The translations under genes were made by a program, and so were the position numbers. Below are positions 7,171-13,516 of a DNA stretch of 64,000 nt, in pieces; the first letter of the stretch is position 1; every line of letters starts with the position of its first letter. This DNA is from Euzebya tangerina (GTDB taxonomy: Bacteria; Actinomycetota; Nitriliruptoria; Euzebyales; Euzebyaceae): assembly GCF_003074135.1 (NCBI RefSeq), contig NZ_PPDK01000002.1, forward strand, positions 186,001-250,000, written 5' to 3'. Below the pieces are notes generated by a model that saw only the letters and a list, made by a program, of their open reading frames with translations, made no database searches and was not told the DNA's origin.

Positions 7171-8793
7171 ATGCACCCCGAGCACTCCCTGACCCCTGAG
7201 GAGCAGGCGTTGCTGGCGCCCCACGTGTCCAACCTGGACGGGAACGTGTTCGCGCTGGCCAACCTGCCGGAGGTGGTCAAGGGCGCGATGTACGCCCGGT
7301 ACTCCCGCTCGCCGAAGTCGCTTCGCCGCCTGCTGCTGGACGAGTTCGCCGACACCCTGGGAGGGGGCGCCACCGACGCCGACGGGTCGTTGACCGTGGC
7401 GGACGAGGGCTCGAAGGCCGCCGCCCTGTACGACCGGGTTTTCCTGCAGTACGGGGACGACTCGGTGGCCCAGCTGGGCGGCGCGCACCTCGCCGTCGAG
7501 CAGGCCTCCAACCTGCTGACCAAGCAACTCGAGTGGGGGCGACTGGCGGCCTACCTGGAGCAGTCCACGCGCTACATCCCGTACGACGACAAGCCGGGCG
7601 GGCGCTACCGCTACCACCGACCAGCCGAGGTCATGGCCGGGCCCCACGCCGACCGCTACATCGCCGACCTCGATCGGATGTTCGGCGCCTACGCCGAGCT
7701 GATCGAGCCCATGCAGGCCTGGGCCCGGGCGACTTATCCCCAAGACGCTCGGACCTCCGACGTCGCCTACCGCAACACCATCCGAGCCAAGGCCCTGGAC
7801 TCGATCCGTGGTCTCCTGCCTGCGGCGACGACATCCAACGTCGGCATCTTCGCCTCGGGGCAGGCGTACGAGAACATGCTGCTGCGCATGGCCGGTCACG
7901 AGCTGGCCGAGGTTCGGGATGCGGCGCAGGCGATGTTGACCGAGCTCCGCACGGTCATCCCGAGCTTCCTCAAGCGGGTCGACCTGCCGGACCGCGGGGT
8001 GGCATGGACGCAGTACCTGCGCGCTGCGCGGCACAGCGCTGCTGAGGCTGCGTCGGCTCTGGATCTCCACCCGCCTCATGGGCGACCGGACGAGCAGGGG
8101 GCTGACGAGGAGGTCACACTGACCGCCTTCGGCCCGCCGGACGCCATGATCGACCTCGTCACCGGCATCCTCGCACCACACACCGCCGCGCCGGAGGCCC
8201 AGGTCCGCACGGCCGTCGACGACATGACCGCCGAGCAGCAGCAGCAGATCCTCTCCGAGTACGTGGGGAAGCGGACCAACCGTCGCCACCGGCCCGGCAG
8301 GGCCTTCGAGCGGCCCTGGTACCGCTTCGAGATCCTGTCGGACTACGGCGGCTTCCGGGACCTGCAGCGACACCGGATGCTCACGATCGAGTGGCAGTTG
8401 CTCACGCCCGCGCACGGATATGAGATGCCGCCGGAGGTGGCCGACGCCGGACTCACGACGCAGTACGACGCGATCATGAGACGCCAAGCCGAACTCCACG
8501 AGGTGCTGGCGGAGGCCCACGGCCCCCACGTCGCCCAGTACGCCGTCGGGTTCGGCTGGCGGATGCGCTACACGATGCAACTGAACGCCCGAGCGGCGAT
8601 GCAGATGCTCGAGTTGCGCACCACGCCGCAGGGCCATCCTGCGTATCGGCGGGTGTGCCAGCGCATGCACCAGTTGATCCGGGCGGTCCACCCCGAGATC
8701 GCGGCTGCGATGTCCTACGTCGACCACTCGACGGGGGAGCTGGAGCGGCTGGCCGCCGAGCAAGCACTGGACGCCAAACGCGCCGCGCAGTGA
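7171..8793 (+). CDS. Double-domain ThyX-like protein (FAD-dependent thymidylate synthase family)
   Basis: ThyX makes dTMP from dUMP with FAD and methylene-folate; the classical protein is ~220-250 residues. This one has 540 residues and looks like two ThyX-like halves. The first half keeps a substrate-binding-like EQSTRYIPYD (near residue 130), but where RHR should precede it there is LEWGR. The second half has QRHRMLTIEWQ (near 395) without the serine expected seven residues after RHR, and a later NARAAMQMLELRT segment like the ThyX C-terminal helix. It occupies the thyX slot between dapB and dapA seen in mycobacteria. Long ThyX-family proteins of this kind occur in other bacteria; whether this one is a thymidylate synthase is open. 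Confidence 0.8.
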   Translation: MHPEHSLTPEEQALLAPHVSNLDGNVFALANLPEVVKGAMYARYSRSPKSLRRLLLDEFADTLGGGATDADGSLTVADEGSKAAALYDRVFLQYGDDSVAQLGGAHLAVEQASNLLTKQLEWGRLAAYLEQSTRYIPYDDKPGGRYRYHRPAEVMAGPHADRYIADLDRMFGAYAELIEPMQAWARATYPQDARTSDVAYRNTIRAKALDSIRGLLPAATTSNVGIFASGQAYENMLLRMAGHELAEVRDAAQAMLTELRTVIPSFLKRVDLPDRGVAWTQYLRAARHSAAEAASALDLHPPHGRPDEQGADEEVTLTAFGPPDAMIDLVTGILAPHTAAPEAQVRTAVDDMTAEQQQQILSEYVGKRTNRRHRPGRAFERPWYRFEILSDYGGFRDLQRHRMLTIEWQLLTPAHGYEMPPEVADAGLTTQYDAIMRRQAELHEVLAEAHGPHVAQYAVGFGWRMRYTMQLNARAAMQMLELRTTPQGHPAYRRVCQRMHQLIRAVHPEIAAAMSYVDHSTGELERLAAEQALDAKRAAQ

Positions 8794-9303: not shown

Positions 9304-10638
9304 GTGGACAACGCCGACACGCCATCAGCTGAGTCGCCTCAGGAGCCCGAGTACCAGACGGGCTTCGGCAACGAGTTCTCCTCAGAGGCCGTCCCCGGTG
9401 CGCTCCCGCGAGGGCAGAACAACCCGCAGAAGCCCCCGCTCGGCCTGTACACCGAGCAGCTGTCCGGCACCGCCTTCACCGTCCCGAACGACCGCAACCG
9501 ACGCACGTGGATGTACCGGATCCGGCCTTCCGTCCGCCACGCATGGCGGTTCGAGCCGGCGGACCAGGACCAGATCCGCAGCGCACCCTGCCGCGAGCAG
9601 GACCCGCCCATCGGGCAGCTCCGGTGGAACCCGCCCCCGTTCCCCGATCACCCCACGACCTTCCTCACCGGGCTCCACACCATCGCCACGAACGGTGACG
9701 CCCACACCCAGACCGGGATGGCCGCACACATCTACATGGCGACGCGGTCGATGACGGACTCCTACGTCTACAACGCCGACGGTGAGCTGCTGATCGTGCC
9801 CCAGGATGGTGGCCTGCGGGTTCGCACCGAGTGTGGCGTGCTTCACGCCCGGCCCGGCGAGATCCTCCTGGTTCCCCGGGGGATGGTCTTCGCCGTCGAC
9901 CTGCTGGAGGAGACCGCGCGCGGCTACGTCTGTGAGAACTACGGGCGCCTGCTGGAGCTCCCCGAGCGCGGCCCGATCGGCGCCAACGGTCTGGCCAACC
10001 CGCGAGACTTCCGCTCGCCGGTCGCTGCCTTTGAGGACCACGACCGGTCGGGGCAGCTGTTCGTCAAGTTCGACGGAAAGCTGTTCGTGGTCGAGACCGA
10101 CCACTCGCCACTCGACGTCGTGGCGTGGCATGGCAACCACGTCCCCTGGGTCTACGATCTGCGGCTGTTCACCACGATGGGGTCGATCAGCTTCGACCAC
10201 CCCGACCCGTCGATCTTCACCGTCCTGACCTCCCCCTCACCGGATGAGGGCATCGCCAACATCGACGTCGTCATCTTCGGGGACCGCTGGCTGGTCGGCG
10301 AGCACACCTTCCGTCCGCCCTGGTACCACAAGAACATCATGAGCGAGTTCATGGGCATCCTGTACGGGGTGTACGACGCCAAGGAGGAGGGCTTCGAGCC
10401 CGGCGGCATGAGCTTGCACAACAGCTACTTCCCCCACGGCCCGGACCACGACGCGTGGATCAAGGCCACGACCTCCGACCTCGAGCCGCAGAAGCTGGCG
10501 GACACGATGTCGTTCATGTTCGAGACCCGCTACCCGCTGATCCCGACCGCCTACGCCGGCTCGATCCCGGCGCTGCAGGACGACTACCCGAGCGTCTGGC
10601 ACTCCCTCGAGCGCCACTTCGACCGGCGCACGCCCTGA
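9304..10638 (+). CDS. hmgA: Homogentisate 1,2-dioxygenase
   Basis: HmgA is an Fe(II) extradiol-type cupin enzyme that opens the ring of homogentisate to maleylacetoacetate in tyrosine and phenylalanine breakdown. The 444 residues match the family length. The N-terminus has the hallmark YQTGFGNEFSSEA, followed by PRGQNNPQKPPLGLYTEQLSGTAFT. Metal-binding and substrate regions are seen at FRPPWYHKNIMSEFMG (near 340) and in GMSLHNSYFPHGPDHDAW (near 375). GTG 9304 was chosen because conservation begins a few residues later. The other pathway enzymes (maleylacetoacetate isomerase, fumarylacetoacetase, HPPD) are not in the window, so the gene is isolated here. Confidence 0.96.
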   Translation: MDNADTPSAESPQEPEYQTGFGNEFSSEAVPGALPRGQNNPQKPPLGLYTEQLSGTAFTVPNDRNRRTWMYRIRPSVRHAWRFEPADQDQIRSAPCREQDPPIGQLRWNPPPFPDHPTTFLTGLHTIATNGDAHTQTGMAAHIYMATRSMTDSYVYNADGELLIVPQDGGLRVRTECGVLHARPGEILLVPRGMVFAVDLLEETARGYVCENYGRLLELPERGPIGANGLANPRDFRSPVAAFEDHDRSGQLFVKFDGKLFVVETDHSPLDVVAWHGNHVPWVYDLRLFTTMGSISFDHPDPSIFTVLTSPSPDEGIANIDVVIFGDRWLVGEHTFRPPWYHKNIMSEFMGILYGVYDAKEEGFEPGGMSLHNSYFPHGPDHDAWIKATTSDLEPQKLADTMSFMFETRYPLIPTAYAGSIPALQDDYPSVWHSLERHFDRRTP

Positions 10639-10699: not shown

Positions 10700-11257
10700 A
10701 TGAGTCGCCCGACCGCTGACCCGATCCTGTCCGCCATCCTGACCGCCGCGACCGAGGCAACCGGAGCCACGTCTGGCCTGCTGCTCTCGACCGAGGACCG
10801 CCTGATGCGCGTCGTGGCCACGGCTGGCGCCGTCCCAGCCGACATCCTGGGCGAGCCCATCTCCGCGGGGGAGGGGGTGGCCGGGTACGTCGCCGCGTCG
10901 GGCCAGTCGCTGGTCCTGTCCGCCGACTCCGCCGATCCACGTCTGGGTGAGGGCACCGCCTCGCTGATCGGACACAATCCCACGTCGGTCTTGGCCGTGG
11001 CCATCCAGGGCACCGCCCGAACGCTCGGCGTGATCGAGCTGCTCGACGCCCGCAGTGGCGCCTTCAGCGTCGACGACACCGAGCGGGCCACCAGCCACGC
11101 CGCGATCGCTGCCGCTGCGCTCACCGACGAGCGACTGGGCGGCACCCGAGACGTGCCCGAGCCGGCCGAGCTCGCCGCGGAACTCCGTCGTCTCGCCTCC
11201 ACCGACCCGGCCCGCTACGCCACGGTCGCCGCCATCCTGGAGGCCCTGGTCAGGTGA
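10700..11257 (+). CDS. GAF-domain protein
   Basis: The 185 residues are essentially a single GAF domain (residues ~5-150), a small-molecule or redox sensory fold. Visible family features are the ATGATSGLLLS strand, EPISAGEGVAGYVAASGQSLVLSAD, and the LGVIELLDARSGAFSVDD segment. A short helical tail (ELAAELRRLASTDPARYATVA) could contact a partner. No output domain is attached. Its stop overlaps the GTG of the subtilase gene by 4 nt, and the histidine kinase gene begins 11 nt after that, so the three are probably translationally coupled. The ligand is unknown; no clear haem- or zinc-binding residues are visible. Confidence 0.85.
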   Translation: MSRPTADPILSAILTAATEATGATSGLLLSTEDRLMRVVATAGAVPADILGEPISAGEGVAGYVAASGQSLVLSADSADPRLGEGTASLIGHNPTSVLAVAIQGTARTLGVIELLDARSGAFSVDDTERATSHAAIAAAALTDERLGGTRDVPEPAELAAELRRLASTDPARYATVAAILEALVR

Positions 11258-12162
11258 GCGGACCCGAGACGATCCCCGCCTGGGCCAAGGAGTCTCGCGC
11301 CGTGGCGCTGGCGTCGGTGCCGAAGCTGGGAGACCTGACGCCGGAGTGGGCCTGGGGCGGCGCCACGGGCGAGGGGGTCCGGGTGGCTGTCGTCGACTCC
11401 GGCATCGACGCCGATCATCCTGACCTCGGTGAGTGCATCGACGTCGAACGCGGCGTCGCCCTGCGCCTCGACCAGGACGGTGACGTCACCCTCAGCCACG
11501 GCCCGCACCGCGACGACTTCGGTCACGGCACGGCCTGCGCGGGGATCATCCACTCCTTGGCTCCGGCTGCGCGAATCACCAGCGTGAAGGTGCTCGGCTC
11601 GGGTCTGTCGGGGAAGGCGGCGGTATTCCTGCGTGGCCTGGCCTGGTGCGTCGAGCAGGGGTTCGACATCATCAACCTCTCCCTCGGCACAACTCGGGAG
11701 GACTGGGCCCTTCCCTTCTACGAGGTGTGCGACCGCGCGTACTTCTCGGGCTCGCTCATCGTGACGGCGGCCAGCAACGTGAACCGTCCGTCGTGGCCCT
11801 CCCTCATCGCCAGCGTCACCAGCGTGGCCTCGAACCTGTCCGACAACCCCGAGCGCTTCCACTACAACCCCGAGCCGCCCACGGAGTTCCTGGCCCACGG
11901 CGTCAACGTGGACGTCGCGTGGCGGGGCGGCGAGCGGATAAGCGGGACCGGCAACTCCTACGCCGCGCCCCACATCGCCGGCATCGCTGCGCGGATCAAG
12001 TCCAAGCACACCGACCTCCGGCCGTTCCAACTCAAGACGGTCCTGTGGGCCACCGCAGCCAACGTCCAGCAGGCGCCGACGCGGGCGGGCTCGATCAACT
12101 ACCGCGACACCCAGACGATCCGGACGACCGGCGTGTTCAACCTGGCCGACCTCGGCGCGTAG
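11254..12162 (+). CDS. Subtilisin-like serine protease (S8), apparently cytosolic
   Basis: All members of the subtilase catalytic set can be seen: Asp in VRVAVVDSGIDADHPDL (near residue 50), His in DFGHGTACAGII (near 90), oxyanion Asn in VTAASNVNRP (near 172) and Ser in GTGNSYAAPHIAGIAA (near 235). The 302-residue protein starts directly with the protease and has no signal peptide, propeptide or anchor, unlike secreted subtilisins or type VII mycosins. GTG 11254 overlaps the GAF gene stop. Context (GAF protein before it, membrane histidine-kinase-like protein after it) suggests an intracellular regulatory protease; that role is inference. Substrates are not known. Confidence 0.88.
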   Translation: MSGPETIPAWAKESRAVALASVPKLGDLTPEWAWGGATGEGVRVAVVDSGIDADHPDLGECIDVERGVALRLDQDGDVTLSHGPHRDDFGHGTACAGIIHSLAPAARITSVKVLGSGLSGKAAVFLRGLAWCVEQGFDIINLSLGTTREDWALPFYEVCDRAYFSGSLIVTAASNVNRPSWPSLIASVTSVASNLSDNPERFHYNPEPPTEFLAHGVNVDVAWRGGERISGTGNSYAAPHIAGIAARIKSKHTDLRPFQLKTVLWATAANVQQAPTRAGSINYRDTQTIRTTGVFNLADLGA

Positions 12163-12172
12163 CATCCACGCT

Positions 12173-13516
12173 GTGAGCACCACCAGCGACGCGCGGCGCG
12201 TCTACCTGCCCGACGAGCCGCTGTTGCGGCGGTTCGGCATCGTCCGCGCAGTCGGGAGCGCCGCCTACATCATCGCGGTCATCATCCTCGCGCGGATCTA
12301 CGGGCAGGACGCCTGGCCACTCGTGATCGGCGTCCCGGTCCTGGTCGTCGTCACCCTGATGTACTTCATCCGCTCACGGCAGTTCCCGCGCAGCGCCGTG
12401 GCGCTCTCGCTCCTCGCCGACACCATCGTCCTCGGCGGCGCGAGCGCCTTCGTCGGCGGGACCGGCTCGGGCACGGCGGCGCTGTACGTCATCCCGATCG
12501 TCTCCGCCGGGATCATCCTGGGGCCCTTCGCCGCCGGGGCCTCGACGGCCCTGGCCGTCGCCCTCGCCTGGCTGCAGCTGCTGAGTGAGGAGATGGGACT
12601 CGAGCCGACCATCCTCTTCCGGCCGGACATGGGCGACCGCCTGGTGGTGCTGCTGATCATGACGTCGGTGCTGATCAGCGTCGGCTACCTCAGCGGCACC
12701 TATGCCAGCCGACTGCACCTGCACATCGCAGCCGCCGACGTGGAGGCCGAGGCAGTCCGGCAGCGCACCCGCCGTCGTCGCTCGTTCGTCCGCCAGGCCT
12801 CGGTCGACGTTCGTGAGCCGCTGAAGGCGGTCGAGGAGGTGGCGGCCCAGCTGGACGATGACGGCCCGCTGAACGACGAGACCCGACGACAGTTGGCCTC
12901 GCAGCTGCGGATGCGCTCCGCGGAGCTGGAGGGGGAGGTCGAGCAGCTGATCGACGTGGGGCAGCTCGACGAGGCGCGGGATGCCAAGCCCGAGCCGGTC
13001 TTGCTCTCCCGCGTCATCGAGGACTGCCTGGCCGACCTCGGCCCGCGTCTGGCGGCGTACGTCGTCGAGGTCGATGTCCCACCCATCCGCGTGTCCGGGG
13101 ACCGGAGGATGGCCCGTCGCGTGGCCTACAACCTGCTGGAGAACGTCGTCGATCACACCCCGCCGGGCACCCGGGTGTGGATCGAGGGCCGCCAGACGGG
13201 TGGCCAAGGGGTCCTGATCGTGACCGACGACGGTCCCGGGATCCCGCCCAAGGTGGCGCGCAAGCTTTTCGAGTCCAGCGACGTGCGAGCGGTCCGGGCG
13301 GGCACGCGGCGGGTTGGCCTGCCCCTGGTCCGCGAACTGGTCGACGCGATGGGGGCGGAGATGACGTACACCGCGAGGGGAGAGGGCGGCTCGATCATCC
13401 TGGTGGGCTTCCGCTTGGCACCGCGGGATGCCCCCAGCTCGGACGGGCCTCATCCGGACCGTGGGGCGGACGGGGAGCGGCAGCCGGAGGGAGCCGTAAC
13501 CCCTGTTGAGCCGTGA
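12173..13516 (+). CDS. Membrane histidine-kinase-like protein with degenerate H-box
   Basis: The 447 residues comprise an N-terminal membrane domain with about six helices (residues ~20-175), a dimerisation-like helical region and a C-terminal HATPase domain. The HATPase shows the N-box NLLENVVDHTPPG, the D-box DDGPGIPP and a G2-like segment RRVGLPLVRELV. At the position of the phospho-accepting histidine (family pattern A-S-H-E-L-R-T-P-L) the sequence reads ASVDVREPL, so histidine is replaced by valine. It may bind ATP without autophosphorylating. No response regulator is adjacent. GTG 12173 lies 11 nt after the protease gene; an acidic/Pro-rich tail of ~30 residues ends the protein. Confidence 0.85.
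   Translation: MSTTSDARRVYLPDEPLLRRFGIVRAVGSAAYIIAVIILARIYGQDAWPLVIGVPVLVVVTLMYFIRSRQFPRSAVALSLLADTIVLGGASAFVGGTGSGTAALYVIPIVSAGIILGPFAAGASTALAVALAWLQLLSEEMGLEPTILFRPDMGDRLVVLLIMTSVLISVGYLSGTYASRLHLHIAAADVEAEAVRQRTRRRRSFVRQASVDVREPLKAVEEVAAQLDDDGPLNDETRRQLASQLRMRSAELEGEVEQLIDVGQLDEARDAKPEPVLLSRVIEDCLADLGPRLAAYVVEVDVPPIRVSGDRRMARRVAYNLLENVVDHTPPGTRVWIEGRQTGGQGVLIVTDDGPGIPPKVARKLFESSDVRAVRAGTRRVGLPLVRELVDAMGAEMTYTARGEGGSIILVGFRLAPRDAPSSDGPHPDRGADGERQPEGAVTPVEP

Follow-up and report, generated by a model that had tools for sequence, protein, structure and literature searches.

A conserved GAF-subtilase gene pair as a probable cytosolic peptide-maturation module

The window analysed here (the whole stretch of DNA under study, 64,000 nucleotides) was found to carry, on the plus strand, a gene for a GAF-domain protein of 185 aa (10700..11257) and a gene for an S8 subtilase of 302 aa (11254..12162), the stop and start codons of which overlap by 4 nt (GTGA, 11254..11257, read in the sequence). 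This pair is probably a two-protein peptide-maturation module, in which the S8 protein would act as a cytosolic precursor-peptide protease in the manner of QhpE or ElxP and the GAF protein as its dedicated partner. What is new here is the occurrence of the GAF-S8 pair, with its motif peptides, across phyla, and the claim made for the genus of the window is weaker than that made for the family. In the production of ribosomal peptides, the step that is lacking is often the protease which removes the leader. A protease that is easily recognised, and that comes with a constant partner gene and a simple motif at the junction, would help to find unannotated precursors in several phyla (including peptides with DVEGH repeats), and GAF-S8 could supply the protease for their maturation. 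The GAF partner itself would be an unusual means of controlling an intracellular subtilase.

The S8 assignment of the window protein is given by Pfam (PF00082, E 6.3e-29), with which the Foldseek matches agree, the structure model being a moderate one built on 9 sequences (pLDDT 72). The Asp-His-Ser triad and oxyanion Asn which define this class within the S8 fold are present as Asp48, His91, Asn175 and Ser235 and are invariant in 74 out of 74 S8 homologues; in the same set, Asn234, which precedes the catalytic Ser235 in a GNS sequence, is likewise invariant. The first-pass annotation had described a subtilase with a full Asp-His-Asn-Ser set and no secretion signal, and this description holds, as the N-terminus is not hydrophobic (the best 15-residue Kyte-Doolittle mean within the first 60 aa is 0.85). 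Secretion of the protease, which had been named beforehand as a finding against the three-gene proposal, is not indicated, given the lack of an N-terminal hydrophobic stretch and a start at 11254 that is backed by alignment with relatives. Approximately 30 residues precede the catalytic core, which therefore leaves little room for a pro-domain. On these features the window S8 is predicted to be cytosolic, to lack a signal peptide and to carry a minimal pro-domain or none.

The neighbouring protein had been identified as a lone GAF protein, in agreement with Pfam matches above the cut-off to GAF_2 (E 5.8e-10) and GAF (E 9.3e-10) and with its predicted fold; its C-terminal tail is short and helical. 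Orthologues of both genes are present in all four genomes of the genus at 68–78% identity, with none in the other sampled genomes of the window's order. By profile search (E <= 1e-60), the S8 family was detected in 10 of 396 sampled genomes of the phylum, in 27 of 251 genomes of the phylum of a Thermomicrobiales MAG and in 40 of 246 genomes of the order of genome G228 (probably Streptomyces-like, judging from genome size and gene content). A genome-contig scan found homologues from Acidimicrobiia and Thermomicrobiales, and in every case a GAF gene lay immediately upstream. The GAF gene was a same-strand neighbour of S8 in 58 of 59 newly found loci. When earlier and new loci (all found by S8 alone) were combined and repeats removed, it directly adjoined S8 in 71 of 72 distinct loci, the lone exception being located at a contig end. 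Gene order varies (GAF before S8 or S8 before GAF), with a 4-nt overlap being the commonest spacing. These data support a tightly coupled unit which is conserved far beyond the window and is often translationally coupled. From the constancy of the partner and from its protein family we infer that GAF regulates S8, most likely by binding to it and keeping it inactive, activating it or presenting its substrate. This binding could possibly respond to a small ligand. Literature searches on GAF plus S8, on aroma-sacti and on the motif letters returned nothing relevant, and the library searched held no paper on the S8-GAF pair.

The gene neighbourhoods of relatives point to precursor-peptide processing, the role favoured here. 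Of 22 loci fetched from the Streptomyces-like order, 21 share a cassette of radical SAM, haem-oxygenase-like, ~60-aa peptide, cyclase/ATPase, S8 and GAF genes; the exception (L204) has neither the radical SAM nor the haem-oxygenase-like gene, and the nucleotide-cyclase/ATPase gene is found in all 22. The peptide that was tested from these loci possesses the NCBIfam aroma-sacti domain (76.8 bits, cut-off 30), and further peptides near the pair in this order carry EVEAH or EVVAH. Within Acidimicrobiia, an FHA-ABC exporter gene is positioned upstream of GAF-S8 in four of four loci. One of these loci, L073, is a RiPP-like cluster, the exporter of which has a C-terminal cNMP-type (cNMP-binding) domain. 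Three Cys-rich peptides of ~100 aa are also encoded in L073 (12004-14350), each with EVE(A/T)F ahead of the Cys-rich part, and its SPASM radical-SAM enzyme is related to TIGR04463, under the cut-off of that model. Loci of the Thermomicrobiales phylum have repeat peptides adjoining the pair (for example, DDDDVEGHGVRKGLT units), and in this phylum and related loci the pair is adjoined by MFS exporters and by small acidic peptides, many of them repetitive (e.g., DDDDVEGHGVRKG). A CRP-type gene was present in 18 of 29 loci outside the Streptomyces-like order.

Most of the small acidic peptides were observed to repeat units of the DDDVEGH or DDTEGH type (L209, L212, L215, L216, L218, L220, L221, L222, L077 and L273-L277), and they adjoin S8-GAF, often together with a CRP-type gene. 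No NCBIfam match was obtained for the acidic repeat peptides tested. It is possible that these are multi-core precursors. The peptides of L207 and L120 gave weak, sub-threshold matches to NHLP-type leaders.

Peptides near the pair were found to share the motif [D/E]-[V/T]-x-[G/A/T]-[H/Y/F]. When small genes up to six genes away from the pair were scanned (with x restricted to eight residues in the script), motif peptides were identified in 42 of 51 loci, against a mean of 2.9 for shuffled sequences (maximum 7 in 200 shufflings) and 1 for reversed sequences. The motif was originally derived from the same loci, for which a hold-out test is a partial safeguard. With the pattern frozen, 12 more loci were fetched, and seven of the nine with a called S8 gene had motif peptides (0.4 by shuffling). 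For other kinds of S8 protease with no GAF gene, the figure was 2 of 11 loci, compared with 0.7 by shuffling. The motif is situated either before a variable C-terminal part or recurrently within repeats, a position that would be expected of a leader/core junction, and we infer that it is a cleavage or recognition site. In the mechanism proposed, S8 would probably recognise this acidic junction in small precursor peptides and would free the core, or the many short cores of repeat precursors, ahead of export. A leader peptidase is characterised by the lack of a secretion signal, as found for the window S8, and by an associated precursor, which was seen in relatives; in the genus genomes, the parts read showed none.

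It is also conceivable, but rather unlikely, that the pair is primarily a ligand-gated regulatory protease, in which GAF would sense a small molecule (e.g., a cyclic nucleotide) and switch an S8 protein acting on regulatory proteins, with the peptide clusters as a specialised use. Such a role would fit the constant GAF partner, the frequent cyclase/ATPase and CRP-type neighbours, the cNMP-binding domain of the L073 exporter and the pair of the window genus with no linked peptide. The Foldseek matches of the GAF fold include cAMP- and cGMP-binding domains, but these are found among many others and do not foretell the ligand. Furthermore, the CRP protein may merely regulate transcription, and most relatives have motif peptides beside the pair. 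Precursor processing and ligand sensing could be combined. Since a nucleotide cyclase or CRP/cNMP protein accompanies the pair, cyclic nucleotides are candidate GAF ligands; the recurrence of these neighbours leaves room for a nucleotide as the ligand without being evidence of binding. The combined scheme, which we regard as speculative and doubtful in its full form, would have cross-phylum peptide systems made up of single-core or multi-core precursors with a [D/E][V/T]x[G/A][H/Y/F] junction and a two-component protease with a ligand-switched GAF subunit, the window genus having a stand-alone version with an unlinked substrate.

Among known systems, the best NCBIfam match of the window S8 is QhpE (NF049966), a subtilisin-like leader peptidase of quinohemoprotein amine dehydrogenase biogenesis with which it has the S8 fold in common. 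QhpE acts on QhpC in the cytoplasm, cutting the leader of this radical-SAM-modified peptide before export (PMC7876137). However, the match of 114 bits is below the curated cut-off of 165 and membership was rejected. The window S8 also differs in being paired with GAF, with no qhp genes and with different peptides, and neither a QhpD-type radical-SAM gene nor a QhpC-type substrate is found among the neighbours of the window pair. The second-best match, to the mycosins (TIGR03921), which are S8 proteases of type VII secretion, was likewise rejected as it reached 99 bits (cut-off 278.75); the window S8 differs from these in having no N-terminal hydrophobic segment. Two further S8 leader peptidases, ElxP and AmyP, belong to lanthipeptide pathways according to an excerpt of PMC10885120, in which ElxP is described as cytoplasmic and AmyP as requiring a (T/S/A)EVE motif. 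One form of the motif in the GAF-S8 peptides, EVE(A/G), is similar to it. That excerpt describes no GAF partner for ElxP and AmyP. A check for defence systems (PADLOC) gave only generic subtilase/IetS-type matches.

The aroma-sacti RiPP cluster of Streptomyces (NF045560; related to StsA sactipeptides) contains the same S8-GAF pair in the Streptomyces-like order, and no paper on this cluster turned up in the library searched. The genus of the window differs in having no linked radical-SAM gene and no aroma-sacti domain over the cut-off in any of its genomes, with sub-threshold matches in G000 (the window genome) and G001 and none in G002 and G003. A cluster of this identity was rejected for the genus, a peptide with the NF045560 domain being sub-threshold only.

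In the window genus itself, no precursor, exporter or maturase linked to the pair was found, and no motif peptide was detected either in the window (64 kb) or around the pair, the ABC exporters and the lone SPASM protein in the genus regions read. In half of G003, ~40 places with the motif were sampled, and none yielded a convincing precursor. A SPASM radical-SAM protein is encoded once in the window genome and not in G001-G003, the radical-SAM enzyme of L073 has no orthologue in the genus, and the strongest genus matches to the FHA-ABC exporter cover the ABC domain only (up to ~39% identity), with no FHA part. With no recognisable substrate, exporter or modifying enzyme linked to it, the pair would have to work in trans, its target being a peptide or protein encoded apart from it. 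It is possible that the precursor is encoded elsewhere in the genome. Protease genes outside clusters have been reported for lanthipeptides (excerpt of PMC8960859). Three ORFs of G003 that otherwise differ (L301, L308 and L322) share, at their C-terminal end, a short repeated sequence that encodes VVEVEGHRS; this may be a repeat dispersed in the DNA rather than a set of peptides.

In a midpoint-rooted S8 tree, the sequences of the genus form one clade (100/99) nested inside exporter-linked sequences of Acidimicrobiia (100/100 for the 8-row set). Because of this nesting, the window pair was probably derived from an exporter-linked system, the linkage of which was subsequently lost. This origin, along with the failure to find exporter and maturase genes in the genus, could also mean that the pair is a relict of such a peptide system, and that it now has only some residual function or a general one, for instance in intracellular protein turnover. 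We consider this improbable, since all four members of the genus keep both genes with the catalytic residues intact and the pair stays together even though the locus has moved in G001. All three window genes, furthermore, are under purifying selection (dN/dS 0.08-0.35). The values of the pair are similar to those of dapA and the kinase-like gene in more distant comparisons, and both genes of the pair are therefore maintained.

The surroundings of the window pair consist of hmgA, thyX, a kinase-like gene, dapA, rnj and ftsK. The kinase-like gene (12173..13516, +) encodes a protein with a strongly hydrophobic N-terminal part and an HATPase_c domain (E 8.9e-19) with no Pfam match to HisKA. A histidine kinase is defined by a phospho-acceptor His in the dimerisation helix; at this position the window protein has Val, and His is found in none of 21 orthologues, so that the earlier report of a kinase-like end lacking this residue was accurate. 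The orthologues (in 21 of 60 relatives searched, ~48-72% identity; a tally of 22 counts the window genome itself) keep the N-box Asn and the DxGPG motif, with the second glycine box being altered. The protein is predicted to be a conserved pseudokinase-like protein, and as a His-less membrane histidine-kinase-like protein found across the order it is a testable pseudokinase.

The first-pass annotation had placed this gene with the pair in a three-gene signalling unit (GAF sensor, protease and membrane pseudokinase), which is now highly improbable and was ruled out by synteny. The three ORFs (10700-11257, 11254-12162 and 12173-13516, +) are all present on the same strand, and the 4-nt overlap was read correctly, with the gap between S8 and the kinase-like gene being 10 nt and not the 11 nt given. 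However, none of the three other genomes of the genus has the kinase-like gene next to the pair: in G001 it directly follows thyX on a different contig from the pair, and one and four genes intervene in G002 and G003, respectively. It lies beside dapA in 20 of 21 orthologue loci (L049-L069), usually followed by rnj and, in wider regions, ftsK, and is not a neighbour shared by any other pair locus that was examined. Thus, the proposed coupling of GAF with S8 stands but the membership of the pseudokinase does not, and conservation of gene order in relatives, the check named beforehand, is passed by the pair and failed by the triple. The gene appears from its synteny to be an ancestral dapA-rnj neighbour across the order, outside the protease module. 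Directly upstream of GAF in the window is a homogentisate dioxygenase gene (9304-10638), this place being taken by other genes in G001-G003. The ThyX protein of the window (7171-8793, 540 aa) has two Thy1 stretches, and its gene adjoins the kinase-like gene in several relatives.
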